Below are positions 4,786-59,560 of a stretch of DNA of 64,000 bases, piece by piece. The notes under the pieces are model-generated. The model worked only from the letters and a program-made list of their open reading frames with translations, was not told the DNA's origin and made no database searches. Source of the stretch: Dysidea avara (lineage: Eukaryota; Porifera; Demospongiae; Dictyoceratida; Dysideidae). The position numbers and the translations under genes were made by a program. Location of the stretch: assembly GCF_963678975.1 (NCBI RefSeq), contig NC_089274.1, positions 44,670,075 through 44,734,074 on the forward strand, given 5' to 3'. Position 1 is the stretch's first letter, and every line of letters starts with the position of its first letter.

Positions 4786-7700
4786 ACACACACGCTATTC
4801 TACAACTCACAGCAGCAGAATTATATCCACCACCTCCAAAGCATCCTCTTCCAAACACGTCAATACCAACATATACTTGGGTGGCCCGGTTCTCTCCAGC
4901 AAGAGACTTACTCGATGCCAACATCCAGTCATTCCAAATATAATTGAGGAAGACACCATCACAGGCATCAAAAAAGACTTGGTTATAATGGTTTAGCGAG
5001 TTCTGCCACTTTAGTTGCCCAGTAACAATGACACTGTCATACCATATGACCTGAGACCATGGCTTGGCCGCATGCATGGCGTGCGTCAGTGATTTTACTA
5101 GATCCAGCATCACATTGACTTGATCTTGCTGTGGTCATAGAAAGATGAATGTACAAACATGTAGTACATACAGTCTTTCAATGAGGTATGATGGTATGGA
5201 CATCTTGGAGACCTACTAAAAAAGGTGTCCTGATTACCCTGGCCAATGCATACGTATAATGGACTAAAGGCACTTGGGAACTCTTTACTAAAAGTCCATA
5301 TTTTCAAGTGTCTATATTAATTAATAGACTTTATTGTATACCAACAGCTACTTTAGATTTAGATATATGGCTACAAAACACTTAACATAATTATGGATGT
5401 AGTGGATACAACAAACATACAGCCAAAAGTAACTCCTCTAATAATTATATACCAATGTATTTCAAGGATGCATTCTGTGAAAACTACTAAAAGTGAGTCT
5501 AGGGTGTCATAACCACATACGTAGTACGTAGGTTGTATTGACACTGATTACAACATGGATCCCTACTCTTTTAAAAAAATATTAATTTAAAAATGAAGTA
5601 GGGATCTATGCATCTATCCAATAAAAAGTAGTGAAACAAGAGATGAATGATGGTATTACAGCATAGCTTGGTGGAAAGTTCCCGCCGAGCTATGTTGTAA
5701 TACCATCATTCACTTCATTTTTATAATAACAATTTTTATTGTTTGTTTAGTTTTTGTTGTAGCACAGTTAGCTACAGTGTAACTAGACTGTTGTATTAGA
5801 GTATCTTGAGCCAGCCAAGGGGTGTGCAGTTAGCTAGACCAATAAGGGATGAGTTTACTGTTAAGTAAATAGCTAGTGTAGTAGATTACTTATTAGGCAT
5901 GTGTATATACTGTTGTACCTTGCGCATGTACGAGTGCTCGTTAATAAGAATATGCTAATGACAGCGTGGTAACAATTGTGTCCTAAATATACTACAAACT
6001 GGCGATGAGGTGATTCCCTAAGTACAGAGGACCCATGGCGAGTAACTTCATGTTAGAAACTTTCAACCCAGCAGTCGAATCAGTTGACGATTACAAGGAG
6101 CATTTTAATTTCCATTGTACAGCGACTGGAGTGAGGCAGGATCGGCAAAAGGCACTGTTTTTGTCCCGTATTGGACAGGAGGTATTCGCGAAAGTCAAGC
6201 CCAAGACTCTTAGCCGACCTAGACCAACAACAAATCGTGGAACTAATGCGAGAGCACTACAAGAAAGGCACAATTGAGATCGCTGAGCATTTAAAATTCT
6301 TTAAGCGCATCCAACAAGAACAGGAGACCCTTGCCAATTATCTGACAGAACTGAGAAAACTCACAAAACATTGCAACTTTGATAATTACATTGACGCCAC
6401 CCTTCGTGACCAATTAGTGTGTGGGCTGCAAGACCACAAGACTCAATGTGAATTGTTGTGTATTCCCAACCTAACATTGGCTGTGGCTTCAGAGAAAGCC
6501 AGAGCAACTGAAACTGCTACTAGGGAAACTCAGCAGCCGAATCCTTCACCGGCCACAACACACAGCCTTGCTCAACATGGTAGAGAGTGTCACAGGTGTG
6601 GAAGAGTTGGCCATACAGGTGCCAATTGTATCCATAAAGATAAGCGTTGCCACTACTGTAAAAAAAAGTGGGTTACTTAAGGTTGCAGGATACTGTAAAC
6701 CCCACATGTACACTATCAATCATTTTTCATGATTAGAAGTCTGATTTTTCTTAATGCATTGCTATCAAATATTTATGCATTCTTAACTTCTCATTAATCG
6801 ACATGGAATTCAAATGTTGTTATGGAAACATGCCAATTAGTGAAAGCTATGAACCAAAATCAGACCAATGAAGAACCATGAGAACTTACTAACAATTCTA
6901 AGGTTTGAAGAACATCACTTGTAAAGGACTGACAAGAGGATCTGTGAATAATGTGTATAGTTGCTGAAATATGACTACAATATGGTCTAAAGCAAGACAC
7001 TGATCACAAAATTAATTTTTAAACTGATATCACAAGCACTAGAAACATTATTTCTAACAAATGGCTCCGTCAGGACCCTAGACAAGAAGCCAAACTAGTA
7101 GTCTGTTTATACAAAATGTTAACAACTAGTTTGACAGTCCTGATTTTTGGTTCAGGAAAATATTGCCATTAGTCAGCAAAGCTACGCATGTGCTTACAAG
7201 TGCGCCAGTTGCTAAGTGTGTTGTTTCTATGTTATCTTGTACCGTTATGGGTGTTTTCTTGTACCTTGTACCTGTCCAGTCAGTGTGCTATGATTCTCCC
7301 CAACAATTTAAGCCTGTTACCAGCTGATACACAACACAACAACACCAAGCTAACATTTTTGTTTGACAGTCGCTCAGCTCAGTATCGTAACCTAAAGTTC
7401 AGTATGTTCTAAGAAGAAAAGTGAATCAAAGGTCACAAAGAAGAACCAAAAGAGCAAGCAACGCAAAGCACATGTGGTGGATGCTGATACAAGTGAGAGT
7501 GAGGAGGAAGCTTTGATACAAGCCATAATCATGTCCACCATAATGGCTGCCGTGGACGCACAAAGAAGTTAACTACCACGCTTCTCTTGAGCAATGTTGA
7601 AATTCAGATGGAAATAGACACTGGAGCTGAATTGTCTACCATACCTTACTCGATATACAAGGAAAAGCTATATAATATCAAGCTAGAGCCATCTACGATC

Positions 7701-10700
7701 AGTCTACGTCAGTATGATGGCACTCCTCTGTTGGTAAGGGGAGAGATAACACTTAATGTTCAAAAGGCAGAGCAAAATCTATCGGGAAGATTTGTGGTTG
7801 TAGACAATGTGACAAACCAGCTACCACTACTAGGAAGAGATTGGTTAAGAAGAGCAAGACTGGATTGGACAAGGCTTTTCAGTGGCATGCAGTTGAAATC
7901 AATCAATGTGGTGAATGTTAAATCAATCAGGGAGGAGTTTCCTGATGTTTTTAAAGAAGAACTGGGCATGTTGAAAGGGCTAGAGGCAGAGATAGAACTT
8001 CAACAAGGGGTCTCGCCCAAATTTTGTAATCACGCCCAATTCCATTTAGCTTACGTAGCCAAGTGGAACAGGCCCTGCAACAGCAAGTGGCTGATGGTAA
8101 ACTGCTACCTGTAGATCAAAGTGATAGGGCTACTCCCATTGTGGTTGTCACCAAGAAGGATGGAAAATTATGAATATGTGCTGACTTCAAGGTGCCTGTA
8201 CTTGAAGATACCAAAGTACCCGCTACCAACTCCGGATGAAGTTTTTGCAGCACTGGCAAATGGTGAGTCATTCACTAAATTACATTTATCACGTGTGTAT
8301 AAGCAAATGAAGGTAGCAGTGGGAGCCAGGGGTACTTGACAATCACCACACATTTGGGTTTGTTCCGTTACCAACGGTTACCATTTGGTATAGCGTCAGC
8401 CCCTGCCATATGGCAGAAGGCAATGTCTATAGTGCTACAAGGCTGTGGTGGGGTTGTATGTCACCTGGACGACATACTTGTCACGGGGCCTACTAGGGAG
8501 GAACACATGCAGAATCTACAACAGGTGTTGGCCCACCTACACAAGTTTGGATTAAGGCTAAATGCTTCCAAGTGTAAGTTCTTCCAAACTTCAGTGGAAT
8601 ATTTAGGTCATTTAGTCACCCCTAGTGGAATAAGTCCCACCCAGGAGAGGTATTACTGAAGCTCCACCCCCCAAGAATAAGTCAGAACTTAAGTCCTTCT
8701 TGGGTATGATCACCTTTAATGCACATCGTTGTCCACTATGCTGCATCCATTGTATAAGCTATTGAGAAAGGAAACACATTGGAAGTGGACTAAAGTTTGT
8801 CAAGCAAGGCTAAGACATCTGTGAGCCAAGCCCCAGTACTAGCTCATTACGATATGACAAAACCTATCAAGTTGTATTGCGATGCCTCTCCGTACGGCTT
8901 GGGAGCTTGCTTAATGCATGTAATTAATGGAGAAGAAGAATAACCAGTGGCATATGCATCCCGAATGCTAAGTCGAGCGGAAAGAAATTACGCACAACTT
9001 GAACGGGAAGTCCTTTCCATTATTTTTGGGGTGAAGAAGTTTAACCAGTACCTTTACGGTAGACAGTTTACACTGGTAACTGATCACCAACCCTTTTGTA
9101 AACTTTTTGGGCACAAAGAGGGAGTACGTCCACTCACAGCAGCCCGCATGCAAAGATGGACCCTCATACTAAGTGCCTATGCTTACAAGATTGAGTTTAC
9201 TCCAGGCTCAACTAACCAATGTGCAGACTGCCTTTCTCGACTACAACATCCAGCAACTGCCACACACCCAGCTGAAAAGGGAAATAAGGTTCATGCAATG
9301 TCCATTGATAACCTTCCTGTTACTGCTAAATTGATTTCAGCTAAGACTAGCAAGGACCCTGTCCTGTCAAAACTATCAACTTACATCCGACATGGCTTAT
9401 GGCCATCACCAACACCAGATGAGGTCAAACCCTTTTTGTGAAGGAAGCTTGAATTAACAATGGTAGATGGATGTATCCTCTGGGGCAAGCGTGTGATTGT
9501 CCCAAAACAGTTGAGAGATTACCAAAGGAATTGCATGTTGGACATGTGGGAGTGTGCCGTATGAAGGCTTTGGCACGTAGTCACATTTGGTGGCCTGGCC
9601 TAGATGATGACATCGAGACACTTTCATCGCAGTGTGAAGCCTGCAAAACAACTGCAGCCATGCCAGAACCAGCGGCACAGCATCCTTGGCAGTATCCTAA
9701 TGCACCATGGGAGCGGGTACATGTTGATTTTGGGGAATGGAATAAAACCAACTTGCTAGTGCTTGTAGATGCTTTCAGTAAGTGGCCAGAAGTGAAACTG
9801 ATATCTTCAACAACAATTCAGAAGACGATTGAGGCTTTAAATGACATATTTGCAACCCATGGTTTTCCAGCAATCCTAGTATCCGACAACGGACCTCAGT
9901 TCACATCCTTTGAATTTGAAGAGTACCTGCAAGGGAATAATATCACCCACTACAAGTCACCACCTTATCACCCAGCCTCGAATGGGTTGGCAGAGAATAT
10001 GGTCAAGAATGTTAAACACCACCTGAAGAAAGAAGTGCCAACTACTAAGACTGACATTAAACACAGTATCACCACCTATCTTTCAACATACCAAAATATC
10101 CCACATACAGTCACAGCAAGCCCCCACTGATTTAATCTTAAAGCAAGCGCCACGCACTAGACTATCACTAACCTCACCTAATGTCAATTTGCGAGTCAAA
10201 ACTCAGTTGCAATCCAAATCTCGCCAGCCAGAAACAAAAACAAGAGAGTTTTGCATTGATGATCCTGTTTTAGTTAGAGACTTACATGTACGACCAGGAC
10301 AACACACTAAGTGGCAGAAAGGAACTGTAACTGCAGCACTTGGGGCCCCAAGATATCTTGTGAATTAGGGGGGAGAGCACACCAGAGAAGCACATGTAGA
10401 CCATCTACAACCTGGTGTACATAAGGACCAGCCTTTAGCTGAACCAACCATAAATACTGCAGAGCCAATCATAACTACTGCAGAAGATACTGAGCAATTG
10501 GCAGACAGTCCCCCTATACCACCACCTAGAAGGTCACAGCGTGAAAAGGTTCAGCAAAAGAGACTATTAGAAGAAATGTAACTGTATTTACTAAAATGTA
10601 GACTTTTAGGTTTTATTTGTTCTTGTAGCATTCTTTGATTTTGAACTTTTAGATTTTTTGCTGTTGTAGTTTTTACCCTAAGTGGGAAGGAGTGTAGTAG

Positions 10701-13199
10701 ATTACTTATTAGGCATGTGTGTATACTGTTGTACCTTGTGCATGCGCATGTATGAGTGCTTGTTAATAAGAATATGCTAATGACTGTGTGGCAACAATTG
10801 CGTCTTAAATATACTACAGCTAGATTGTTAAGAGATGTGGTCTCTATACTCCATTGCTGTTAGATCTTTATTTGATGGGCGTGGTCGCAAACCTATCGCA
10901 AACAGGATCCTGATTGCAAAGTTACAGTTGTCTAGCTAGTGTTCTTGTTATAGTGCTGAAGCACTTCTGAAGTCCAGCTCTGGATTCTGTGGCATCTAAA
11001 TATACTGCTGAAAGAAAGTGTTGATATGAAAAATTAATGCCTCGATATGGTTTTGTTGGATAAAGAAGACAAGCAGCCTGATTGAAGAGGGCAAAGAAAA
11101 GACAAGGCACAGAGGGCCTACACTCATCGGAACCACAAAAGGCACATCACACAGATGAATTCATTGTTGTGGTGTAAATAATGGTGGCCATGCATTGCTT
11201 TGTTTGGCCTCTAGCCTTGCGACCGTGGTCAGGCAGTGAGACTAAAATTTGAGCTTTGGCAATTTTATTCAAATTCTATATCCAACCACCTGGAAGGGTT
11301 TTGTCATATTTCATGCTGTATTATACATTATATATGGACTAATACTATTCCGTAAAGGTGATTTTCGTAGTGTAAGATGTCTCTAGGATAATTTTCAAAG
11401 GCAGAATTTACAGCGGCGCATGAAATTTTTGGAGCGATCCCTACTGGTATTTGATGCACTATAACTACATTAGTACGTGTATCCATCTACATCACTTTAC
11501 AATTTCCTGACTATTGCATTAGGATGTCTACTGTATGTATGTCGATTATTCCTGCTACTGAAGCAGTTGTTATACTCTCATGAGGTATCATGCATAAGGG
11601 TTATACAGACTCTTTGTATGTCTCATATCCTGAAATGTCTCTCAAAACTAACACATACTAGTGCAACTAAAAAAATTATTAATTTAAAAATGAAGTAGGG
11701 GTTCCAGTGATAAAAAGTAGTGAAACAAGATATGGTAGTTATGAGGGGAAATCCCTAGCTACTTGGTACCATATAGCCTAGAGACAATTTTTTTTCAATG
11801 TTGCTAAAAATAAACTTTTCACGGATTTGCAAACAATCCCAAAATGTATTAGACTATATGGAGATCTTAATATTTCAAGGTTAAATTTTTGCTGATAACC
11901 CCCAAAACCCCAAAATCAGCAAAAACTTCTCCCCTTGAAATATTTAGGTTATACAGTATTATAGAAAAGTGGAAAAATCACTATTTTGGCATTTCCCAAA
12001 AGCAGCAAAAACTGATAACATCTAAAGTGCATTTTACCATTCAGTGGACTTTTAAAGTAACCATTGATCTTAGGTATAGAGGTGTTATAACAGGGAAAAT
12101 CAATAGAGTAGGAACCATAAGATTACAAGGAACTCACTTGCAGATTGTTCTCAATGTTGATCAGCCACCCATCAAACTGGTAGTAATTGGCCAGACTCAC
12201 ACACTGCTCCACAAACTGGTCTACGTTAGCCTTAGTTGACAACAAGTGGTTACAGGTACGTGCACCATCCTCCCACTCTGTAATAATCGTGCCAAGAGAC
12301 AGGACTCCGTTGGCATGGGCTGCGTTGGTCCATGTTGAGGGTGGTATTGTGATGAAATTGTGGCTGAAATAAATGAAGCTCTCTATCAAATGCCAGTGAT
12401 AAAAGTGATAGTCACTGGTGGCATTGGCTCCTTGTGGGTACTTGTCTTGAGTATACCCTCCCATCATGTCATGGCAGACCATTATTCTGGCACTCGGATT
12501 ACTGTTGCTTCTTCGCCGCAGTGGAACAGTGGCTACATTGAAGGCATCAAATCCTGGTAGCCAAGAGAACAACTTGTAAATAGATTTAATTGGCTGGATT
12601 ATGGGGTGACCACAATCATCATATCCCTCAGTAGGTAGTTTGGTGCTTGGTAAAGATGAGTACTTGTAGTGGATCACTTTCTGTTTAACTGGTGTTATCA
12701 ACATAGAGGCCCTCCTATCATCTTCATTTTCCGTCCTTTTTCCCTCCATCTTTTCAGCCTTCACGTATACGGGACTTTTACCTGAGGTCATAGGGGATTT
12801 TACCCCTAGAGTGGCGGATTTGCTTGGGGTGGATGAACTTTCGTCAGTCTCCAAAATAGTGTCACGATTTCGGGGCCTTCCGTCACGATCTTGCTGCTCT
12901 TTGCTTGCCCAGGTATGCTGTAACTTCGTGAAGCTGAATTCTCTCCTCGTACCTACGTCTGTTCTGTCAGACTTGCTTGATTCAGTTTGTTTACTTACTC
13001 CTTCCGTGAGTTGTTCATTTGTAAGTTGCTCGTAGAAACGACTACGAGCTTCTCTCAAGTCTTCCTGAGGAGATGGAATTTTCATGGGTTTTGAGCTGTT
13101 CACCTGACGCTTTCTTGCTCTGCTGGCCCACCATATTGTGGATACTAACACAACTAGAATCGATATAACTATAAGCAATGCTATCTCTACTTCCTCCAT
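4509..13199 (-). CDS. ENGASE: cytosolic-type endo-beta-N-acetylglucosaminidase (ENGase, GH85), 3' end missing
   Basis: ENGase cleaves the chitobiose core of free or protein-linked N-glycans. Three exons are visible on the minus strand: 13199-12138, 5128-4811 and 4612-4509. Each ends in a GT donor with matching phases (0, 0, 2). The first exon encodes the start of the GH85 domain, including HFYHWHLIESFIYFSHNFIT and the catalytic stretch DGWLINIEN, where N and E are the active-site pair. Exon 2 gives VIWYDSVIVTGQLKWQNSLN and YVGIDVFGRG; exon 3 gives KHGLSAAIFAPGWVFENQNK. All are typical of animal ENGases. I chose the ATG at 13199; an upstream in-frame TTG is unlikely to be used. Residues 6-25 form a hydrophobic segment followed by RARKRQ, which looks like a membrane anchor, and a ~170-residue polar linker precedes GH85. 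Intron 1 (7 kb) carries a Gypsy element. The C-terminal third is not in view. Confidence 0.9.
4703..4793. repeat. (AC)n microsatellite inside a 198-bp ENGase intron
   Basis: About 40 AC units interrupted once near the right end. It fills nearly half of the short intron between ENGase exons 2 and 3 (4613-4810). The reading frames it opens (runs of TH or CV) are artefacts of the repeat. Confidence 0.95.
5572..5726. repeat. hairpin repeat in ENGase intron 1
   Basis: The outer part begins TTAATTTAAAAATGAAG and contains AATAAAAAGTAGTGAAACAA. The inner arms (5642-5674 and 5681-5712) are reverse complements over 31 of about 33 positions, around a 6-bp loop. The same outer block recurs at 11670-11740, and most of the unit recurs reversed at about 54050-54110. 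The adjoining stretch 5129-5571 has no recognisable exon. Confidence 0.75.
5877..5996 (+). repeat. 5' LTR of the Gypsy element
   Basis: About 120 bp, beginning TGTAGTAG and ending ACTACA. It matches 10693-10818 closely along its length apart from a small indel. Very short for an LTR. Confidence 0.9.
10693..10818 (+). repeat. 3' LTR of the Gypsy element
   Basis: About 126 bp, the partner of 5877-5996, with the same TG...CA ends. It is followed by the second copy of the GCTAG target duplication. Confidence 0.9.
11670..11740 (+). repeat. partial copy of the hairpin repeat family
   Basis: Matches the left half of 5572-5642: TTAATTTAAAAATGAAGTAG and ATAAAAAGTAGTGAAACAAG. The second arm is not found at the expected distance. 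Confidence 0.65.
11866..11950. repeat. stem-loop with a C/A-rich loop
   Basis: AATATTTCAAGG..TTTTTGCTGAT pairs with ATCAGCAAAAA..CCTTGAAATATTT across a loop made of two CCCCAAAA-like units. It may be the core of another fold-back repeat; no second copy was noticed. Confidence 0.5.
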
Positions 13200-13354
13200 G
13201 GCTCCATTCAAAGCTCACTTCGAGACGCGTCAAATAGAGCGCTTAGTAACCATTTTAGAGGCGTCTACATCAGAATTTATAAATTACACGCGCTTGGTTC
13301 AGTTCGAGTAAACGATTTTCTTACCGTGCTATTTCCTTTTGTACGTCGCCTCCG
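13200..13354. promoter_or_regulatory. probable bidirectional promoter of ENGase and TMEM184
   Basis: Only 155 bp separate the two divergent ATG codons, so both transcripts must start here or inside neighbouring exons. The stretch is richer in CpG than its surroundings and has a TATA-like TTATAAATTA near 13275. The bidirectional role is inferred from spacing alone. Confidence 0.6.
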
Positions 13355-27738
<14,384 letters not shown>

Positions 27739-32946: not shown

Positions 32947-33317
32947 TACCTCTAAGCACTGAGATGTCACTCCAGTATACTTGTTACGATAACGCTGTGC
33001 TGTTGAGAAACAAAAGTTGAATTTGTGTACAGAAAAGGTTGGGACATGTGTCGTATAACCCTATGATGTAGTGCTGCGTATGATTATCCAAATATAAACA
33101 TCGTACTTTTTACACATTCAGGAGAGGTGTGCATGGTGTAGTGTTTGTTTCTTAAGTGTTAATTGGCTGAAATAAGGGATTTGGGAGCAATTATTTCATG
33201 ATATCAATTCGCACATTCGATTATGGTATAGTTTAGGAGTTAAATTGGATGAAGATTTCTTTGGGTGTTTAATGACAACCTCCTCTGATTTGTTTATATT
33301 TCATGATAAACATGTTA

Positions 33318-33691
33318 TAGTATGTTCACGTTGAGCTGAACCCTGAAAAGCAGCTAAAAATTAAAAGTGGATTTTTTCTCAACAGAGTTAACATTTCTGT
33401 CAACCAGATGATTACTGGTAACAGCAAAAAGTGTCAACAACAGACAAGTACGGTTTGGCTCCATTACAAGTTCAGGAAAGGACTCTAATGGATATTGTAC
33501 TTATATGGCTTCCCCATAGGAAATGTATTGTGAAAATTTAAATATTATGTCAAACTTTTGAACAAAAAGATTTTGAAATATTTTTAGCGGGTCAAGCAGT
33601 ACTACAAATGAGCCAAATTTCAAGATCGTGTGTAATTGCATCCATGAGTTATTAAATGTTTTTGAGGATTCAGCTCAACGCGAACATACTA
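33318..33691. mobile_element. TA-flanked MITE, copy-2 specific
   Basis: 374 bp. Inverted ends TAGTATGTTCACGTTGAGCT and TAGTATGTTCGCGTTGAGCT, with TA on both sides. The empty TA is at 14606-14607 in copy 1. Non-coding; Tc1/mariner-type target. Confidence 0.85.
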
Positions 33692-33701
33692 TAGGTGGTA
33701 T

Positions 33702-33771
33702 CAAGAGTATATAATGTGGGAGGGAGAGTGTCGAACTACGCTATAGCCTGTGAAAAATGAGCCCGTTAAGT
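33702..33771 (+). repeat. left terminal inverted repeat of the P-like transposon
   Basis: 70 bp beginning CAAGAGTATATAATGTGGGA and ending CCCGTTAAGT. Pairs with 38793-38862 with one mismatch. Confidence 0.95.
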
Positions 33772-33895
33772 GTTTCCGGATATTTACGGATGCCTACTTG
33801 TATTTACGTAATCTCGACTGGTGTTGATAGGCACGAATCGACACGTCTATGTCAAGGCGGCTAAGACCTCATGGCCGCAAGAACCAAAGTGAACG

Positions 33896-36800
33896 ATGGC
33901 TGAAACCCCTTCGAGACATACAGTGGTTCAGCAAAATGTTGAAATGTCCAGTGATATTGAACGGGAAATCAATTATGAGTTGCAAGATGGCATCGCCGGT
34001 GACAGTGAAGGGACTGAAGCGAACGCAGTAAGTGAAGAACGAGGTGAAGGAGTGCCTGGAGAGGAGAACAACGGTCCTGTAGAGATTGGGGAGGTGGATC
34101 GAGCGGAACATGAGCTTTTTCATCACGAAGTGTGCGAGCTGGGGACCAATGGTTTTCCGGATCTGTGTTTTGTTAAAGCACAAGACGACGCAGGGAACTC
34201 TATGGTAGTGATAACTCAGCAAACACTAATGTTTCACCGTCCATTTGGCTTTACTTCGCGAGTCCAAGTAACCATCAGGGGAATGGAGTACGAAGTTCAT
34301 GTGATGATGAAGAAACTGATTTCAGGTACCTTGAAGTCTGTCAGGGATGTGAAGGAATTGTGCCGTCAATTTCGTGCTGGCTCTGGATACAAATTTTGTC
34401 CTGGTATTGACCCAAAGTATTACAACTCGCATTATTTTGAAACTATCCGCTTTGATATTAAAAGTGTGAGGAAAACTGCAGAGCCTTTTGCCCGAGTAGA
34501 CTCAGTAAACTGCAATCTATGGTTTTTGCTGGCCAGCAATGCAACTGCAGCTGAAAAAGCATCTATGGAAGTTCACTGTGCTGCTTGTAAGAGGCTAATC
34601 CACTATTTGAATTGCCAAAGACGCCGTACTTTAGCAGAAAGCCCTAGTCGGAAGCTGAAAAGGCAATTGTCATCATCACGGGCCAGGCTTTCATATATGT
34701 CTCCAGCTAGCCAGAATAAGAGAAAATGCCATGCGCAAAGTGAGAGATCCAATTTGTTACGAAAGTTGGAAAAGTGTTCCGAGTCAGATGTAACGTTGAA
34801 TGATGAACAACATGACGAGATGTGTGCTATTGTGGAGAGTATTAGGACTGAATAGTTGGAAAAGATTTTACTTGAAGGTAGTGAACACGGAGTTGGTGAT
34901 TTAATGAAGGAGATCTGGTACACTGATAGTAAGCGTCAGAAGCAGCAGTTCCTGCATGATCAGTCCAAGAATGGTAAGCTTTACAGTACTGTTTAATTGA
35001 TTATATTATTATTATATGATTGTTTGTCAGTTTCTGGAGAGCGAGGTAACAGATGGAGCATGATGACTGTTAGAATTGGTCAGTTACTTTGTATGTTGAA
35101 CCCCATTTATATAGCACTTTTATGTTTAGCCTTAGCAGTATATACCAGGAGTCCTGCAGCTTATGAGGCTCTTAAAAGTTTTGGAATTTTGCAATTGCCA
35201 TCCAGGTCAACATTACAAGCCTACACTGGAGCATTTATGCATGAACCAGGAGCAAGCAGTCAGTGCATAGAGAGGCAGGTTGCTCGTTATGTAATCTTTA
35301 AGGAACAGTGCAGAGAAGCTGGTAAACAAGAGCCCAAATCGGATGGGGTACTCATATTTGATGAGGTGAAAGTTGCATGTCAACTGATGTGGAACTCGCG
35401 TAGCCATCAGCTGATGGGCCTTGCCATGACCCACCAAGAATTGTCTTCCCTTAATGACATTTATAGATTATTGAAAGAACCTGACAGTGCACAGCAAACA
35501 TCTTATATACTCCAGTTTCTATGGCGTGACCTTACCAGTGAATTCGACATTGTGGGACCTTACTTTACAACTTCTTCTTCCATGGAAGGGAAATTTGTCA
35601 TAGCATGTGTTTTAGAGACAGTCAAGCTGTTTCAGTTTTATGGCATGAAAACAAGCCTGTTGGTTTGTGATGGCGCATCTTCAAATGTTTCAGCCATAAA
35701 AGCAAGCCACAAACACAATGGAGTATATTCAGTTGCTCAAAACAAAGATGATATTTTTGAAGTGAAACCATGGATGGTGAATCCATTCAATCCACCTCAT
35801 CACATTTACTGGCTAATCTGCCCATCTCATCAGGTATGTACCAATCATAATGCACGAATGATCTTAAATTTTCACTTTCTACCAGCTCAAAAATATGGTG
35901 AATGCACTGTTCTCTTCAAAGAGCACTGGTACTAAGCATTTTCAGCGCAGTGGCCAGTGCAAGTTTGGATGGGATACGATTGATGACTTGTATCAACGAG
36001 AATTGAGTCGAGTGAAGCTTAATTGTGCAAGAATGGTACCAAAGCTGAAGGAAACTCACTGCTTGCGGGATGCGTGGACTAAATTAAATGTCTTACCAGC
36101 AAAGATAATGCAGGTAATAATGTGGTTTTGTGAGAAATGTGTATTTATGTCATCTGGCTGTGAAATAGCAAGAACAGGTATTGTCAGAGCTCCACTGGCA
36201 TATTCATCAGGACCATACTACACCTGAAGAAGCAGCTAAGACAGCTGAAACATTGGCATACTTGGAAGCCTGTCAATGCCTGTTTGAACATGGGTTTCTG
36301 AATCATGAAAGAATTAGAGGTCTCAATTCTGAGGTGCTGAATAACATCAACAAGGGATACCGCTACTTTTCCGGATGGCTTACTGATCTGCTTGAATGCG
36401 GTATTTTACTTTGAACATATGTGTGAGATTTTAGTTTTCTTTCTACAGACCCAAATTTCCCACACACTTCCAACACACAAAGGGAGTTCCTGTCATGGCA
36501 AAGTAAGCTGATTCAGAATGTGTGTATTTTCTATTTTTCTATTTGTAGCATGGGACCTTCTACGGATAGACGTCTATGGCTTTAACGCCTTTGCTAAATG
36601 GTTTTTTAATTGCTATCCAACATACTTTATTTCACCCCTTCGAATTTCTGGATCTGCAGTGGAGAGTTTGTTTAGCCAATATAAATACAGTGCTGGTGGA
36701 AAGTTGGATGCGGCAAACTATGCAACAGCAAGATGTTCTCATTTGGTTAAGCAGTGTGTTGCTAGCCATCAACCTGGGAAAGATTATCGAGACCAGTCTG

Positions 36801-36913
36801 TTGGAATTGAGCTACCATTAGTAAAGCACAAGTATGGTAAAGCAAGCACAAAGGACTTGTTAACTTGTAATATATTGACCAGTGTATTTAATGTACTACT
36901 TTATCTTTATTGA
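33896..36913 (+). CDS. P-superfamily transposase, one stop codon
   Basis: Six exons join with consistent phases to 917 codons: 33896-34973, 35031-35833, 35886-36113, 36178-36400, 36449-36502 and 36549-36913. P/THAP9-type features: RWSMMTVRIGQLL, then YEALKSFGILQLPSRSTLQ, the first acidic residue in VLIFDEVKV, the second in LLVCDGASSNVS, the HQLKNMVNALF segment, LRDAWTKLNVLPAKIMQ, and a C-terminal GSAVESLFSQY that probably holds the last catalytic Glu. The N-terminal ~330 residues are acidic, then globular with CAACKRLIHYLNC, then basic; I see no C2CH THAP finger. A TAG at 34853-34855 interrupts exon 1 while the frame stays open on both sides. The intron positions are my prediction from splice sites and phase. 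Confidence 0.85.
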
Positions 36914-36963
36914 AATTTCACATGCACAATATGTGCCAAATCATACAGTCAAGAATGCATGTA

Positions 36964-38698
36964 CTATATTGCAGTGAACTTAGCCCCCAGTTGTGTGTGA
37001 TGAGTTAACAGTGTGTTCCGTAAGTTTACTTCTACAGTGGATGCCACACCCTTCTTAGTTGCTAGTTGTTGTTTCATTGAAGAGACGAACTCTTGAATTC
37101 TAGTATTGCACAATTTCCTAGTAAACTCTACAAAAACACTTTCTAAAACTTCTTCATTGAAAGTCTCGATGTTTGGTAGCTTTTGGGCCAATACAGTTTT
37201 AAATGATTCCCATAGATCATGACGTGCAGCGACAGTAGTGTGTCCCACCTGCAAGAAACAACACCAGTTATAATTCGATTTGCAAAGGACAACAACATAT
37301 TTCAAAATATACACAAGCGTTTGAGACTATCACACCCAGTCATGGTCTCTAATAAAGATGAATAGTTTTTAGAATTTACTATAAAGTTAAACTATCTACC
37401 AGTGTTCACCTTTATTAAATCAGCCCCATGTTCATTTAACCCTTTTGAATTGACCACCTGCTTTAAGACCATGTCCACTTCACGAAGGTATGGTACAAAA
37501 AGTGGATCAGGGAAATACATGTAACCCCTGTCACGATACTTTAAGTATCCTGGAATGCACGATTTGTCCTTGGTATTGATAGCTTGTAGCACAGTGATTT
37601 TTTGAGAAAGGACATTTCTTTGGTCATCAGAGCACTGTTTGATTTCCTTGTATAGCGCATGCAACACTACAAAGTGCTGCTCCTCCAAAACGGTAGTACA
37701 CGCCGTCTTCATCTGTTCCTATTGTTACACTCCCAGACTCAACAAGTTGTTTCTGAAATCGAGTTACATGTTCTAATAGAAAGTGGTACACAGTAGATGA
37801 CACTGTTATCATAACCTTGTTACAGTGGGGAACAGGCATTCCATTTGCTTTACAAAATTCCAACCATGTGCTTCGAAGGGTATTCACAGGGTGTTCAGCC
37901 AGCTCTTGGTAATCTATGTCTTGCAAAGAATATTCTTCACTAAGCAGGAAAACACTACAGTAATTGTGCCAATCTAGCTGGAATCGTAAGAAGGAGTCTG
38001 GAAGTTTCTTGCTGCTGATGTAAAGTGTCCCAAAGTAACGATGGTGATGCACAAGTACTTCTCGAAGAGGCTGCTCTGATGTACACAACACATTTGCAAA
38101 ATCTTTCAGTAATCCACCATCATCAAAAGTTTCCTTCAGTTTACTGATTACTTCCCACTGTATAACCTCACTACTGATACTTTGTATTGACTGCAACAAC
38201 TCATCCCTCTCTGATTTCTTCATTGCTTTAGTTTTACTAGTTTTGCCCTTCTTTTGAGAGGTTTTCTGCTGCATGGCTTGAGCTGCTTGAGCCGTGGTTG
38301 CTCCAGCACTTGAACCTTTGCCGCTTATAAGCTCTGAGCTTTTTGTTCCCTTTGAACTGCTTGTTCTTAGACTGGCCTTCTTCTGAGCGGGTTTTTGCTT
38401 TGTGGCTAGGGATGCTCGAGCCGTGGTTACAGTTGAGCCATCGTCGTTTGTGGACTCTGATTCCTTGGAATTGTTTGCTCTAGCCTTCTTTCGAGGGTTT
38501 TTTTTGCTTCGTGACTTGGGCTGCTCTAGCTGTGGTCGCTCCTGCATTCGAGTTTTCTCCATTATTTGTCTCACACTGAGTTACGTCCGTCCTTCTTTGC
38601 TTGCTCGCCGATTCTACTTCTTTTTCTAACAGTTTGCGCCGTGTACTTCGTCTTCTGGCACCTACAACTCCATTCTCAGTCGAACTGCACTCAGCCAT
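36964..38698 (-). CDS. second transposon gene, unknown function, two frameshifts
   Basis: Two exons, 38698-37410 and 37248-36964, with a GTGAAC donor and a TTGCAG acceptor, give about 520 residues. The start MAECSSTENG is preferred; an in-frame ATG 18 codons upstream is possible. Residues ~40-170 are basic and repetitive, with three imperfect ~40-residue units around TTARA...QKKA. The rest looks globular: LLREVLVHHHRYFGTLY-like helical stretches, STWLEFCKANGMPVPHCNKV, GVYYRFGGAAL, and YLKYRDRGYMYFPDPLFVPY. One frame change lies in an A8 run near 38507 and a second near 37680. I recognise no domain. Its placement inside the terminal repeats suggests an accessory role in transposition or regulation, which is inference. 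Confidence 0.75.
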
Positions 38699-38792
38699 AT
38701 TTGTGACGCACGTGCATATAAGCGTGCGCGCCCTCAACCCACAGCATCGCACGCCGGTCTCACCTATTTACACTTCTTGTCGAGGCCATAGG

Positions 38793-38862
38793 ACTTAACG
38801 GGCTCATTTTTCACAGGCCATAGCGTAGTTCGACACTCTCCCTCCCACATTATATACTCTTG
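38793..38862 (-). repeat. right terminal inverted repeat of the P-like transposon
   Basis: 70 bp, the reverse complement of 33702-33771 except for one base in the TATAGCC/TATGGCC block. Confidence 0.95.
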
Positions 38863-39904
38863 GTGGTATACTATAACATTTACTATGTTACTATATTCTT
38901 ATGTTTTCAGTCGGGCTTTTATGACATGTACATGTTGCCTACATAATGCTGGGTTTTCTTCACTTCTGTAAGCATGTATGTTTTTTTTGTCTGTCCACTC
39001 TGATAAGCATGTAGTGGTGCATTTTTGTCAATGTTTCAGGCTACACTACAATTTTGTGTTGTGAAGCTGATTACCGCTGTGATAACAATAATTCTTGAAG
39101 CGAATGGCAAATTTAACATGGGCAACTGGAGGTAAAGTGGTACATTGAACCTTGGTTCACCTGTAGAAGGTCGTACCCTTTAAGGATATGAGAATATTGT
39201 TCATAGCATACTGATACTATACACAATATTTATGGCTTATTAATATGGGGTGGTCCTATTCCTGTTAATAATGTTGCTGCAGTTACAGTTTTGTTACTGG
39301 TTGCTATAACTTGCTGAGTACTACGTAACTTGTAACCGAAACCTCTCTGGATATCGCAGCTGTCAATCAGCCATATTATTGGTTGCTTTAATTGTATAGT
39401 GTAAGAATACCGTATGTGGTCTCACTGTCTAGTTTTGTGTGTGTACGTACAGTACAAGTGTATGTTGTTTAGTCTCTGTTACATGTCACACACTATTAGT
39501 CAGGGTGTTATACTTTCTGTAACCTGTGTGTCATGCTCTATTACCAGTTGAGTTATGCTATGTCACTGTGTGAGCACTGCTATCATGTATGTGCCCTATG
39601 CATGTCTTCTTGCAGTAGTAGTGGCGTCTACCACATGAAATGGCATTTCTTTCTCATGCTGTTAGCACTGCTTAACTAGTCCATTTGCATTACTTTGCTG
39701 TTCCATTTACAATCCCATTTGGAGAACACTAAGCCTTACTATTAAGTGAAAGGCCATGGCTGTGCATTTAAGGATTGAAAGTGAGGACTAGCATTAGGGG
39801 TGGGCAATATTTCATTAATATATCGAGAAATTCAATATTTTACTAATACCGATGTGCAAAAATGATATCGAGATACAGTACAATGTAACAAGCACAATGT
39901 GTTA

Positions 39905-55657: not shown

Positions 55658-58600
55658 TCATCTGGGGGATCTCATTTGTGATCTTAACACATCAAGAGCA
55701 CTTTCATATGTCAAATTATCCAGATCTCTGTCTTCATCATCATCTCTATCTGGTCGCTTGTAGTGACATGCTAGCCACAGATAGAGCAGGAGTGCAAAGA
55801 ATGACAGGATCATCACAATGGGTAAATTGGTTAGAAACAGTAGGATGATTTCTGCAACTAGAGATCCCAAGCCCCACATGAAATAAAACATCCCGATCAT
55901 AAATCCCTTCATTTCACGTGGTGACTGTGCATATGCAAATTCAAGAGCTAACAAAGAAACATACACAACAGTACATTACATATTTTATGTACACTATGTC
56001 ATAATATATGTATAACTAATTGGCCTCTCACACTTTACAAAATTTCAAAGCATTATATATCACAACCCATACTGTATAGTAAGGACCACTGAGATTTGTA
56101 TTATAAAGATATCAGCCTCACTTATCCTTAAGATGACCTGGAAGTATTGTTATCAAGCCCAAATGTAGATTCAGAGCAAATTCTTCCAATAAGTTTTATG
56201 GAATTTTAAACTTTTATTTACATAATTTTTTGCTGATTGACAACTTAATGATTCCCTCAGATAAGCGTAACTCAATATTGGCTTACGCATTACAGGCTTA
56301 ATTTCTTCGCCATTTGAGATCACTTGGGTCTGATACATGCCACCATGGACTTACTTTTGGCCTCCACTTCTTTCTGCTTGCAGCACAAAGCATTAATTTG
56401 TGGTAGCACATCTACAGCTTTGTGTGCTGATGTAAGCATAGAGCAGAAACACCTTCAACAGTCAAAGTAATCGAGTCTAGACAAGCTTCACATATTGCTA
56501 ATTCCAGATTTTTGTAAACAGCTATAACAACAAGATGAGGAAAGTATATTGTCCTTTAGTCAGCTTACCCCATGCATGGGTCACCTCAAATTAAGCTACA
56601 CAGTAAACAGACAGAACACATCCGAAAATAACTAAAATGCTATTTGCTTACTACCATACAGTACGATAGTAGGGACGACGAAGGTGTGGGTGCCCACTGG
56701 TAGCAACTATTGATAATAGCTAAAGTGTATTTTACTATTTCAGTGGACCTTTAATTAGCATGCTCATGGATGTTAAAGGCAACGTGCAGTTGTAAGTGCA
56801 GGTGCGAATGTTTCTGCAGCAGTGCATATACACACAAGTAGAGATTGGGTGATTTTTGTACATAAGATCTAATGGAACAGCTATAGAACAGATAAAGCCA
56901 TGTGTGACTGTTCTAACTATTACAATATTGAACATGGCTGTTGTGTTAGGGTGACTGCTTTATCAGAGTATCTCAAGTGGGCCTCAGCTAACTGGACTAC
57001 ATTCAAGTTTCGACAATTTAAAAAAAAAAATCAATATCTGGCTGCCTGTGTATATAGTGTTTAGTTTTTAATGCTGTATTTGATGTTAGATGGAATAATA
57101 GTATTCTGTAAAGGTGATTTTCGTCATGTAAGTCGTCTCTAGGATGATTTTTAGAGGCGGAATTTATGGACAGTGCCCATCGCTTTAGGGGAAATCCATA
57201 CTAAACAGTGATAATTGAACATATGATGAGTATTAATAAAAAGTACAAATTTAAAGCTATTGGTAGTCATTTTTAAAACTTAGTAAACCACACTCTCAGT
57301 ACTGCATACAATGCAGCAGATTGCAGAGCAATGTTGTACAAATCTCTGTAATGGAATTACATTGTAAGGAAATATTCCAAGTAAATATAGTAGTAAATGA
57401 ATCAGAGATTGTGAATGTGGTGGCTAAGGACTAGGGACCCAGCTTTTCTCAGGATTTACTATAAATTTACACTTTGTAATGTTTTTACAGTCTTTACATT
57501 GTATCAGCTAACACTGCAGGTCACCATTTTCCTTGTCCTATGAACCTCTACTATGAAAATTTTGGTTAGCATAAACCAGTCTTTCTCCGCAATGAACACA
57601 ACATGATACTACCCCATTACACCATCTTCTCAGCACGTTGTTATAGCTTGTTCTTCAGTGAAGAGGTCACTGTAGGCGCAAGCTATGCAACAGAAACATA
57701 GAACAAGTAGTTCAACGTGCAGGCCCCATGGTTAAGTGGAGTACAAAATCCTTCCACAATATGAGTAATTGCAGGCAAGACAAACACTTATTGAAATTCT
57801 ATAATAGTAGTGATTTGAACAAGTGCCCTATGCTAACTAGTCTGAACTATTTTTGGAGTATGCACTTACGACAGAGAAAAGTGGTCTAACCATTGCAGTA
57901 CCAGGTAAGGAATGTACACATGTTATGAAATACACATCGTATCAGTAAGATCCTGAAAAAAGTTGGGTCCTTGAGTCCCTGGTCTGGTCTCCAGGTCCAC
58001 TGTTTATACTAACTCAAGAATCAGCTTTTCAACCTCAGTAAACTAATAGCATTTACAACTGCACATATATACATACACAGCACAGCAGCTTACCACCAAC
58101 TTCTATCAGTACTTCACTCAGCCCCAACATTACTGCACTACCTATGGAAAGGGCTGCTGGTATGTACCAAATGGAAGAGTTGGGATGGTGGATCATTGTA
58201 TGAGGAAACTTCCTTGCTAGGTCAAATGAGTAGAGGACCGCAGTTATTGTTGATGCTGATATCAAACACAGAACTGACCCAATGCCAACCCTATTTAGCA
58301 TGTTAGGAGTATATCCACCCAAAAGAGGATACGCAAGTTTATCAAATACTGGTATAATTGTGAGGATTGTTAAATCTTCTGCTATAGTTAACAAGATGCT
58401 GCCATTAAAATAGCATTCTGTGCTTTTTATTATGACATCGGAAAACAACTGCAGAACAGTTATTACCTATAGACAAAAAATACAATGTGTACATTACAAC
58501 AGAGGCACTTACAGCTGTGATCAACATCAGTGTTCCTATCATGGAGAAAAGGATCAATAAAAGTCGATAGAATGTCTTAACATCTTCTACTTGCGTACTA

Positions 58601-59499
58601 GTAAATGGTCCACCATATCTTAACTTAGCTAGGTCTAATCTGGGAGGTGGGTCTTTGTTAATCGTGAAGGCACTCTGGTGCGGGTCATACTTTGCTTTCC
58701 GTGCAAAACCTATCACCTTTACTACCAGAGATAATGGGTTCTTGATTTCCTTCTGATGATGTAGCCACTGCTTGCAACAGAAAAGTACACAAGAAGCTAA
58801 ACTAAGAGCAACTGTAGACAGTGTCAAAGTTACATAAGCTACAGTTTCATCATCGTTATGTCTACTGTCACTTGGATGTTGACTACAGCTGAGTACCAGC
58901 TGAAATATAACAGCGACAGCACCAATGTTCCTTGTCCAATAGTACCAGTGAAACAATGAGCTCAACTCCTCACCCCAAGCCCCCCTGACTTGGTCTGCCA
59001 AAAAGGGTACCATGTTCACTTGCACTGCAGCAGATCCAGCACACAACACAACAAACAGAATTGTGAACAGTACAACCATTGATACTCCTTGCCAAACTGC
59101 TGCAAATCCAAGTGAAAACATCAAAGCAAGAAGACCATAACAAACCGCACATATCAGTACACCAGATGTGATGACATTTAGTCGTCCAAACCTCACGTCG
59201 GCGAGGTAACCAGCAAATGGATACAACAGAAATGGAACAGAGTTTAGTACTGTTTCAGCCAAAATCGTGTTGTGAATGCTCTCGTTGACATGCAGTCGTG
59301 AATAAGACTCTGCAATTCGAAACGCCGAAGACGTAACGTTGTGAAAGGCGTACCTCTCCAAAGTGGAAACCACTAGAAGAGCCAACACTGCTCTATTTAT
59401 AGGAAATTTCCGGGGATGGTACCTGCAACATCTGGAAATATCTGATTCCAGCACTTCAGTAGACTCATAACCAGAATGGGACTGAGAATCAACTTCCAT
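55658..59499 (-). CDS. proton-coupled oligopeptide transporter (POT/SLC15 family)
   Basis: POT proteins are 12-helix symporters that take up di- and tripeptides (and, in the SLC15A4 branch, histidine) with protons at the plasma or lysosomal membrane. Three exons, 59499-58513, 58466-58094 and 55947-55658, join with matching phases to 549 residues. The N-terminus has STLERYAFHNV, corresponding to the family ExxER region with its first Glu not conserved. Next comes the PTR2 signature FAGYLADVRFGRLNV in the loop between helices 2 and 3. Exon 3 has LEFAYAQSPREMKGFMIG, the second PTR2-like signature near helix 10. Hydrophobic segments are spread along the chain, and the tail is polar and acidic. 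A cytosolic DxxxLL-type lysosomal signal is not clear at the N-terminus. Family is certain; subfamily and substrate are not. Intron 2 (55948-58093) holds only repeats. Confidence 0.9.
55948..58093. other. intron 2 of the SLC15-family gene
   Basis: No exon seen. Contains the dispersed repeat GTAAAGGTGATTTTCGT at 57110-57190 (copy at 11335-11430), a repeat near 56715-56755 shared with 12010-12065, and a motif copy TTATCAGAGTATCTCAAG near 56960. Confidence 0.6.
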
Positions 59500-59560
59500 T
59501 GTTTTACTCCTCTATTTAACGCGCACAACCATAGCTACGCGCGTGCGCGTTTTTGCATGT
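59500..59560 (-). promoter_or_regulatory. probable promoter region of the SLC15-family gene
   Basis: Just upstream of the ATG is a CpG-rich stretch in otherwise AT-rich DNA: AACGCGCACAACC and ACGCGCGTGCGCGTTT. The alternating GCGC core resembles an NRF1-type site (GCGCATGCGC) but is not exact. Assignment is inferred from position and composition. Confidence 0.4.

Follow-up and report, generated by a model that had tools for sequence, protein, structure and literature searches.

A P-superfamily transposon of Dysidea avara with two convergent genes, the second a candidate for a detached C-terminal part of the transposase

Introduction

P elements are textbook transposons, and the structure of a one-chain P transposase has been solved. 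Why, then, should a P-superfamily transposon in the genome of the sponge Dysidea avara carry two genes, the second placed tail to tail with the transposase gene, and what might that second gene encode? The element in question, 5161 bp in length, begins with CAAGAG and ends with CTCTTG; it lies at positions 33702-38862 of a 64,000-nucleotide stretch of DNA (C3:44670075-44734074; hereafter the window, to which all positions refer), and was followed up by searches of the 550.8-Mb assembly of 108 contigs. An initial annotation, made from the letters of the window, had viewed it as a distinct two-gene lineage of P elements that transposes as one piece. In Drosophila, the P transposase bears its THAP, HTH, RNase H, GTP-binding (GBD) and C-terminal (CTD) domains on one chain (PMC7776569; here and below, published systems are described from the available parts of the papers cited). 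On balance we favor the view that the sponge element is an autonomous-type transposon with a transposase divided over two convergent genes, such that the second half of gene 2 would be the counterpart of the CTD.

Results

Ends, target sites and coding content of the window element

The 70-bp terminal repeats and the target duplication of the initial annotation were borne out: the two 70-nt inverted ends are 99% complementary and the sequence GTGGTAT flanks the element on both sides. Terminal inverted repeats with a 7- or 8-bp target duplication are P-superfamily traits. We examined 22 elements with CAAGAG...CTCTTG ends, namely six complete copies, thirteen short ones, and the loci L059, L060 and L061 (all described below). 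An exact 7-bp target duplication is present in 20 of them, and on these grounds we rejected an 8-bp duplication; in the remaining two, L027 and L061, the duplication matches at 5/7 positions. When both strands are counted, the consensus of these targets is NTANTAN.

The proposed gene layout, a six-exon transposase facing a two-exon gene of some 520 residues, was also upheld, and gene 2 encodes 524 aa in the sole copy that retains a whole frame (L011). One correction is needed in that the window copy of the element is broken in both genes.

All introns of the transposase gene are GT-AG, and its product has about 900 residues (902 aa). The stop codon of copies L009, L010 and L013 corresponds to 36857-36859; it is lost in the window copy, where the frame runs on. 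The P-type RNase H domain PF21787 is matched by exon 2 of the window copy alone (E 3.5e-10), by the 902-aa protein (E 7.9e-8), and in 4/4 families of the window lineage (best E 5.4e-8). The presumed catalytic residues D471, D574 and E838 are invariant across these four families, at a spacing that suits the P superfamily; they are assigned by motif and not by structure. Between the second aspartate and the glutamate there is an insertion of 264 residues in which PF21788, the GTP-binding domain, is unmatched, though the fly protein does match PF21788. No Pfam match to a THAP domain was obtained for the transposases of the four window-lineage families, nor for that of a more distant family, L067. 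Residues 1-120 are acidic, with a net charge of -12 and -8 per 60 residues. At the other terminus, the window-family protein stops 64 residues past the presumed glutamate (hand count), and the families read all end 64-76 residues after this residue, with no CTD on the catalytic chain. A profile search of the PDB with the window-family transposases gave no match up to E 10; a match of a single transposase sequence to coronavirus nsp4 was dismissed as chance.

The product of gene 2 is basic at residues 51-150 (net +6 and +9 per 50). Searches of Pfam and the PDB with the window-family protein returned nothing above cut-off, and when the gene 2 profile was compared to that of the adjoining transposase no significant match emerged (E 0.3). 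Relatives of gene 2 were sought in the viral_contigs and genome_contigs collections, where none of 104 and none of 58 pattern matches, respectively, was confirmed. An AlphaFold2 model of a 90-aa piece, derived from one sequence, had a mean pLDDT of 42 and was not used.

The two genes move as one unit

The two-gene unit is mobile as a whole. A search of the genome with the 199-bp left end (best 40 of 523 candidates scored) gave at least 41 matches, seven of which span all 199 bp. Both ends are present in six: the window element and L009, L010, L011, L013 and L014, which are 97-99% identical to it across most of its length; the seventh, L012, is a 202-bp stump. Among the matches listed, all six copies with both ends carry both genes, and they do so at six unrelated sites with 7-bp duplications; this includes L013, which has a 0.4-kb insert, and L014, which has a deletion in gene 2. 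A further locus, L016, retains 3.8 kb of the right side (93% identical), with gene 2 and the 3' part of the transposase gene. The initial annotation had made its case depend on whether other copies with the same ends keep gene 2: among the copies read, the only ones devoid of it are thirteen short elements (L015 and L017-L028; 494-573 bp), in which neither gene finds a match (13/13). The ends of these elements are 93%-like, and exact 7-bp duplications flank 12 of the 13, which suggests that a related transposase mobilized them.

The transposase frame is whole in three of the six complete copies (L009, L010 and L013). For gene 2, one copy (L011) has a frame that is intact from the first ATG; L009 and L010 each carry a single disruption near the N-terminus, after which the frame stays open. 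In comparisons with L016, the most diverged copy, the dN/dS ratio is 0.40 for gene 2 (of L011) and 0.30 for the transposase (of L010), which indicates constraint; the other pairs, with few changes, give 0.22-0.79 for gene 2 and 0.41-1.25 for the transposase.

The window also holds a segmental duplication, in which 14.2-32.6 kb pairs piecewise with 39.2-52.6 kb at approximately 89-97% identity and in which 31.2-31.9 kb is inverted relative to 51.3-52.1 kb. The empty site that the initial annotation had placed in copy 1 of this duplication is real, in that GTGGTAT occurs there once, but the comparison is not a clean one. Besides the P element, copy 2 has five extra bases beside the target; in addition, an insert of 0.38 kb at 33317-33693 that resembles a miniature inverted-repeat transposable element, with ends of about 34 bp and apparently at a TA, adjoins the P element and is not present in copy 1. 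The segmental duplication together with the 7-bp target repeat nevertheless bears out the claim of joint transposition: the element came in undivided, with both of its genes.

Convergent pairing recurs across P families of this genome

A search with the window-family transposase (best 50 of 926 candidates scored) yielded at least 118 genome matches, and a search with gene 2 (best 82 of 785) at least 96, at 32-100% identity. We cut out 30 transposase loci, and in 23 of these gene 2 was found by tblastn in convergent orientation behind the transposase; the other seven were centered on exon 1 and end short of the gene-2 position. Seventeen of the 23 belong to families other than that of the window: ten are copies of one family, with 78-80% identity across the transposase exon scored, and seven (L035, L047, L048, L050, L052, L053 and L055) have transposases that are 48-68% identical to the window family. 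Gene 2 is convergent in every related family with a locus of sufficient length (transposases 45-80% identical). Three families were retrieved at full length (L059, L060 and L061); in each, inverted ends of 65-104 bp enclose both genes, and exact 7-bp duplications flank two of the three. We note separately that the ten near-identical copies of the 78-80% two-gene family (L037-L046, L059) have a common pattern of stops in the scored exon stretch, and hence may represent one recent burst.

After loci were merged, a listed gene 2 was located within 7 kb downstream of 38 of 57 transposase loci, always convergent, never on the same strand and never upstream (this count uses all 96 gene-2 rows and one or a few rows per transposase from the search above and from another that scored the best 55 of 921 candidates, further exons being dropped by eye). 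Four of the remaining 19 (L035, L047, L050 and L061) have gene 2 according to tblastn. Conversely, 43 gene-2 loci have no transposase among the matches listed; a sample of four was inspected, and a convergent transposase is present in all four. The initial annotation had asked whether gene 2 occurs outside P-type ends; wherever a locus was read, gene 2 lies convergent beside a P transposase.

The same arrangement extends to more distant P families of this genome, which we term canonical. A search with PF21787 (best 150 of 447 candidates scored) gave at least 151 matches, 150 of which enter the pairing counts; the best has an E of 3.9e-24, and the top families are about 23% identical to the window lineage. 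In L066, L067 and L068, a convergent open frame of approximately 320-330 residues is situated close downstream of the transposase, which stops 67-76 residues past its presumed catalytic glutamate (hand count). Searches with two of the canonical second proteins (best 121 of 444 and best 126 of 364 candidates scored) delineated 172 merged loci among the matches listed. A second-gene match occurs within 8 kb downstream at 98 of the 150 PF21787 matches, 97 of them convergent and one on the same strand, and upstream at only three; random placement, for which the length of contig C9 was guessed, expects 0.44, and chance pairing was rejected. Viewed from the other side, 98 of the 172 second-gene loci have a listed convergent PF21787 match. 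THAP domains are common in the genome, but none of 150 listed THAP matches (best 150 of 586 candidates scored) falls within 5 kb of the 150 PF21787 matches. The initial annotation is supported as to a two-gene P element, but this is not one odd lineage: it is a feature of many P families here.

The second protein and the CTD of Drosophila P transposase

To the eye, the motifs Y-GY---KL, RGGL and TIRG...K-K-LRK of canonical second proteins resemble the Drosophila CTD, for which we used a sequence identical to chain 6p5a_B. In hhalign, a three-member canonical profile aligned to this CTD with an E of 9.7e-5 (score 35.1; highest of 100 shuffles, 20.0), and an eleven-member profile with an E of 2.1e-4 (score 33.0; highest of 100 shuffles, 29.7). 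Among 24736 Pfam models, Tnp_P_element_C (PF12596) is the family matched by most canonical second proteins (3/11), the best E of 0.0052 being below cut-off. Canonical and window-family second proteins align in turn over 137-189 columns, with hhalign scores of 32.1 and 31.7, where 100 column shuffles in each case reached no more than 23.3; one tblastn match between them has an E of 0.010. A direct comparison of the window-family protein with the fly CTD gives nothing, so that its connection to this domain depends on the canonical proteins as intermediates. Homology of the second protein to the CTD is, at the level of sequence comparison, supported and not proven.

Table 1. Features of the two-gene element and its target sites (window positions)
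Feature	Position	Strand
Empty target with one GTGGTAT, in copy 1 of the segmental duplication	14609..14615	
Left target duplication, GTGGTAT	33695..33701	
Left terminal inverted repeat, 70 bp, starts CAAGAG	33702..33771	+
Transposase exon 1; acidic N-terminus, no THAP match; in-frame stop at 34853-34855 in window copy	33896..34973	+
Transposase exon 2; RNase H domain PF21787, presumed catalytic aspartates D471 and D574	35031..35833	+
Transposase exon 3	35886..36113	+
Transposase exon 4	36169..36400	+
Transposase exon 5	36449..36502	+
Transposase exon 6; presumed catalytic glutamate E838	36549..~36859	+
Gene 2 exon 2; conserved C-terminus	37248-36964	-
Gene 2 part that aligns with the canonical CTD-like part (~residues 330-524; includes intron 37249-37409; limits inferred)	36967..37711	-
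Gene 2 exon 1; N-terminus basic and of low complexity, followed by a conserved domain; two frame disruptions in window copy	38698-37410	-
Imperfect 56-nt repeat in three copies, in the part of gene 2 that codes for the N-terminus	38244..38537	-
Right terminal inverted repeat, 70 bp, finishes CTCTTG	38793..38862	-
Right target duplication, GTGGTAT	38863..38869	

Neighboring sequence

Elsewhere in the window there are retrotransposon pol pieces at 7503-10127 (aspartic protease, reverse transcriptase RNase H and integrase core), an exon that encodes the beginning of a glycosyl hydrolase family 85 domain at 12126-13214 on the minus strand (E 1.4e-38), and, at 58408-59511 on the minus strand, an exon of a POT-family transporter (PF00854, E 4.2e-9).

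Discussion

A proposed division of the transposase over two chains

We consider that gene 2 is probably a detached C-terminal part of the transposase and not an unrelated accessory, and we hypothesize a process with a division of labor. Gene 1 would supply the catalytic protein, with its RNase H core and presumed DDE residues, that ends soon after the catalytic glutamate; gene 2 would supply a separate protein, the second half of which appears to match the CTD of the Drosophila P transposase. The two proteins may meet in the nucleus, and it is our conjecture that the acidic tail on one and the basic tail on the other assist in this encounter. In the fly, the CTD has a flexible, disordered linker and contacts both donor and target DNA (PMC7776569); the sponge protein could likewise bridge the transposon end and the target DNA, while the two-chain complex would make its cuts at the CAAGAG ends and, with a stagger of 7 bp, integrate the element into NTANTAN targets. 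Under this scheme the two chains would form a physical complex, transposition would need gene 2, and both tails would have roles. It is also possible, if somewhat doubtful, that the P transposase of this genome is generally a two-subunit enzyme, in the canonical as well as the window lineage; the split may even be the older state, from which the one-chain forms of P and THAP9 would have arisen by fusion.

Several results weigh against this division of labor. In no copy read are the two genes both intact from the first ATG, and some dN/dS ratios are not low: 0.79 for gene 2 between L011 and L014, and 1.25 and 0.80 for the transposase of L010 against the window copy and L009, respectively. Partners are missing from the listed matches for 52 of the 150 PF21787 matches and for 74 of the 172 second-gene loci. 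Furthermore, the hhalign probabilities are modest for the canonical profiles against the CTD (58% for three members, 46% for eleven) and low for canonical against window-family proteins (12.5%, 10.8% and 6.4%). A PDB profile search with the 11 canonical second proteins misses 6p5a, and the direct comparison of window-family gene 2 with the fly CTD is not significant, in that 64 of 200 shuffles score as well.

The main alternative is that gene 2 has a regulatory role: its product would be a free-standing protein, CTD-like or DNA-binding, by which the transposase is repressed or titrated. Truncated products act in this way in Drosophila P elements, and a CTD on its own, furnished with a basic tail, might be a competitor for the ends or for the target; the lack of a copy with both genes intact also suggests that the pair is not kept intact together in the copies seen. 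On the other hand, the presence of gene 2 in many families, alongside transposases that end early, is more in keeping with a subunit that the element requires than with a repressor that it could do without, and we regard a regulator as unlikely.

Slightly less likely again is an accessory protein of ancient origin that has no relation to the CTD and is devoted to, for example, targeting, nuclear import or host interaction, in which case the likeness would reflect convergence of short helical motifs. The window-family protein that has no Pfam family above cut-off, the PDB search that misses 6p5a, and the non-significant direct comparison all speak for this alternative, but the canonical second proteins outscore all shuffles against the CTD and match PF12596, and gene 2 keeps the same place and orientation. 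That gene 2 is a host gene captured only here, the refuting case that the initial annotation had named, or one captured by one element and spread by chance, found no support and is rejected as hardly credible: gene 2 has at least 96 genome matches, diverges between families and is yet paired convergently with a P transposase throughout the loci read, both in the merged counts and in all four sampled loci that lack a listed transposase.

Comparison with known systems

In the open-access literature, the scope of our survey (Repbase and subscription papers lie outside it), we found no description of a two-gene P element or of a split P transposase. If the transposase is indeed divided, the annotation of P-type elements would change: second proteins of this kind are Pfam orphans, and so would be mistaken for host genes. 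The role of the CTD would also become open to study, by its omission or its supply in trans.

The sponge element is most readily compared with the Drosophila P element (6P5A), with which it has in common the PF21787 RNase H domain, ends that start with CA, cut-and-paste transposition with a target duplication, and the CTD resemblance of its second protein. It differs in that the fly element has one gene, 31-bp ends and 8-bp duplications (PMC7776569 for the last), whereas the window element has two genes, 70-bp ends, 7-bp duplications and no THAP domain that we could find. Zebrafish THAP9/Pdre2, of the same superfamily, has the P-type RNase H, GBD and CTD and an 8-bp-type cut-and-paste mechanism; there, THAP and a fused CTD reside in one protein (PMC10983969), in contrast to the probable split proposed here, in which no THAP domain was matched. 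Galileo, a P-superfamily element of Drosophila, makes 7-bp duplications as the window element does, and its target consensus, GTAGTAC (PMC2775673), fits the NTANTAN of window-type elements. It has a THAP transposase and very long inverted ends (PMC3688188), in which respects it is different, and the parts of the Galileo accounts used for this comparison mention no second gene.

Two other groups of elements are comparable for their second proteins. Kolobok superfamily targets are TTAA, and a TTAA target duplication is absent from the elements that we examined. Kolobok elements with KolX, and KolobokP, are animal DNA transposons with a second protein beside the transposase, either a ballast-fold protein or a His-Me nuclease (PMC9587614); Pfam gave no sign of either in the window-element proteins. 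The likeness to RAG-like (RAGL) transposons is one of layout and not of family: no RAG1-like or RAG2-like family is among the Pfam matches of either window-element protein. RAGL elements also make a 5-bp target duplication, as compared with 7 bp for the window element. What the two share is a pair of convergent genes inside inverted ends, which in RAGL elements encode a DDE-type recombinase and its partner (PMC7204232). If our interpretation is correct, the P-type elements of this sponge would be a second, independent case of a DDE transposon with a convergently encoded partner, beside the RAG1/RAG2-like elements.

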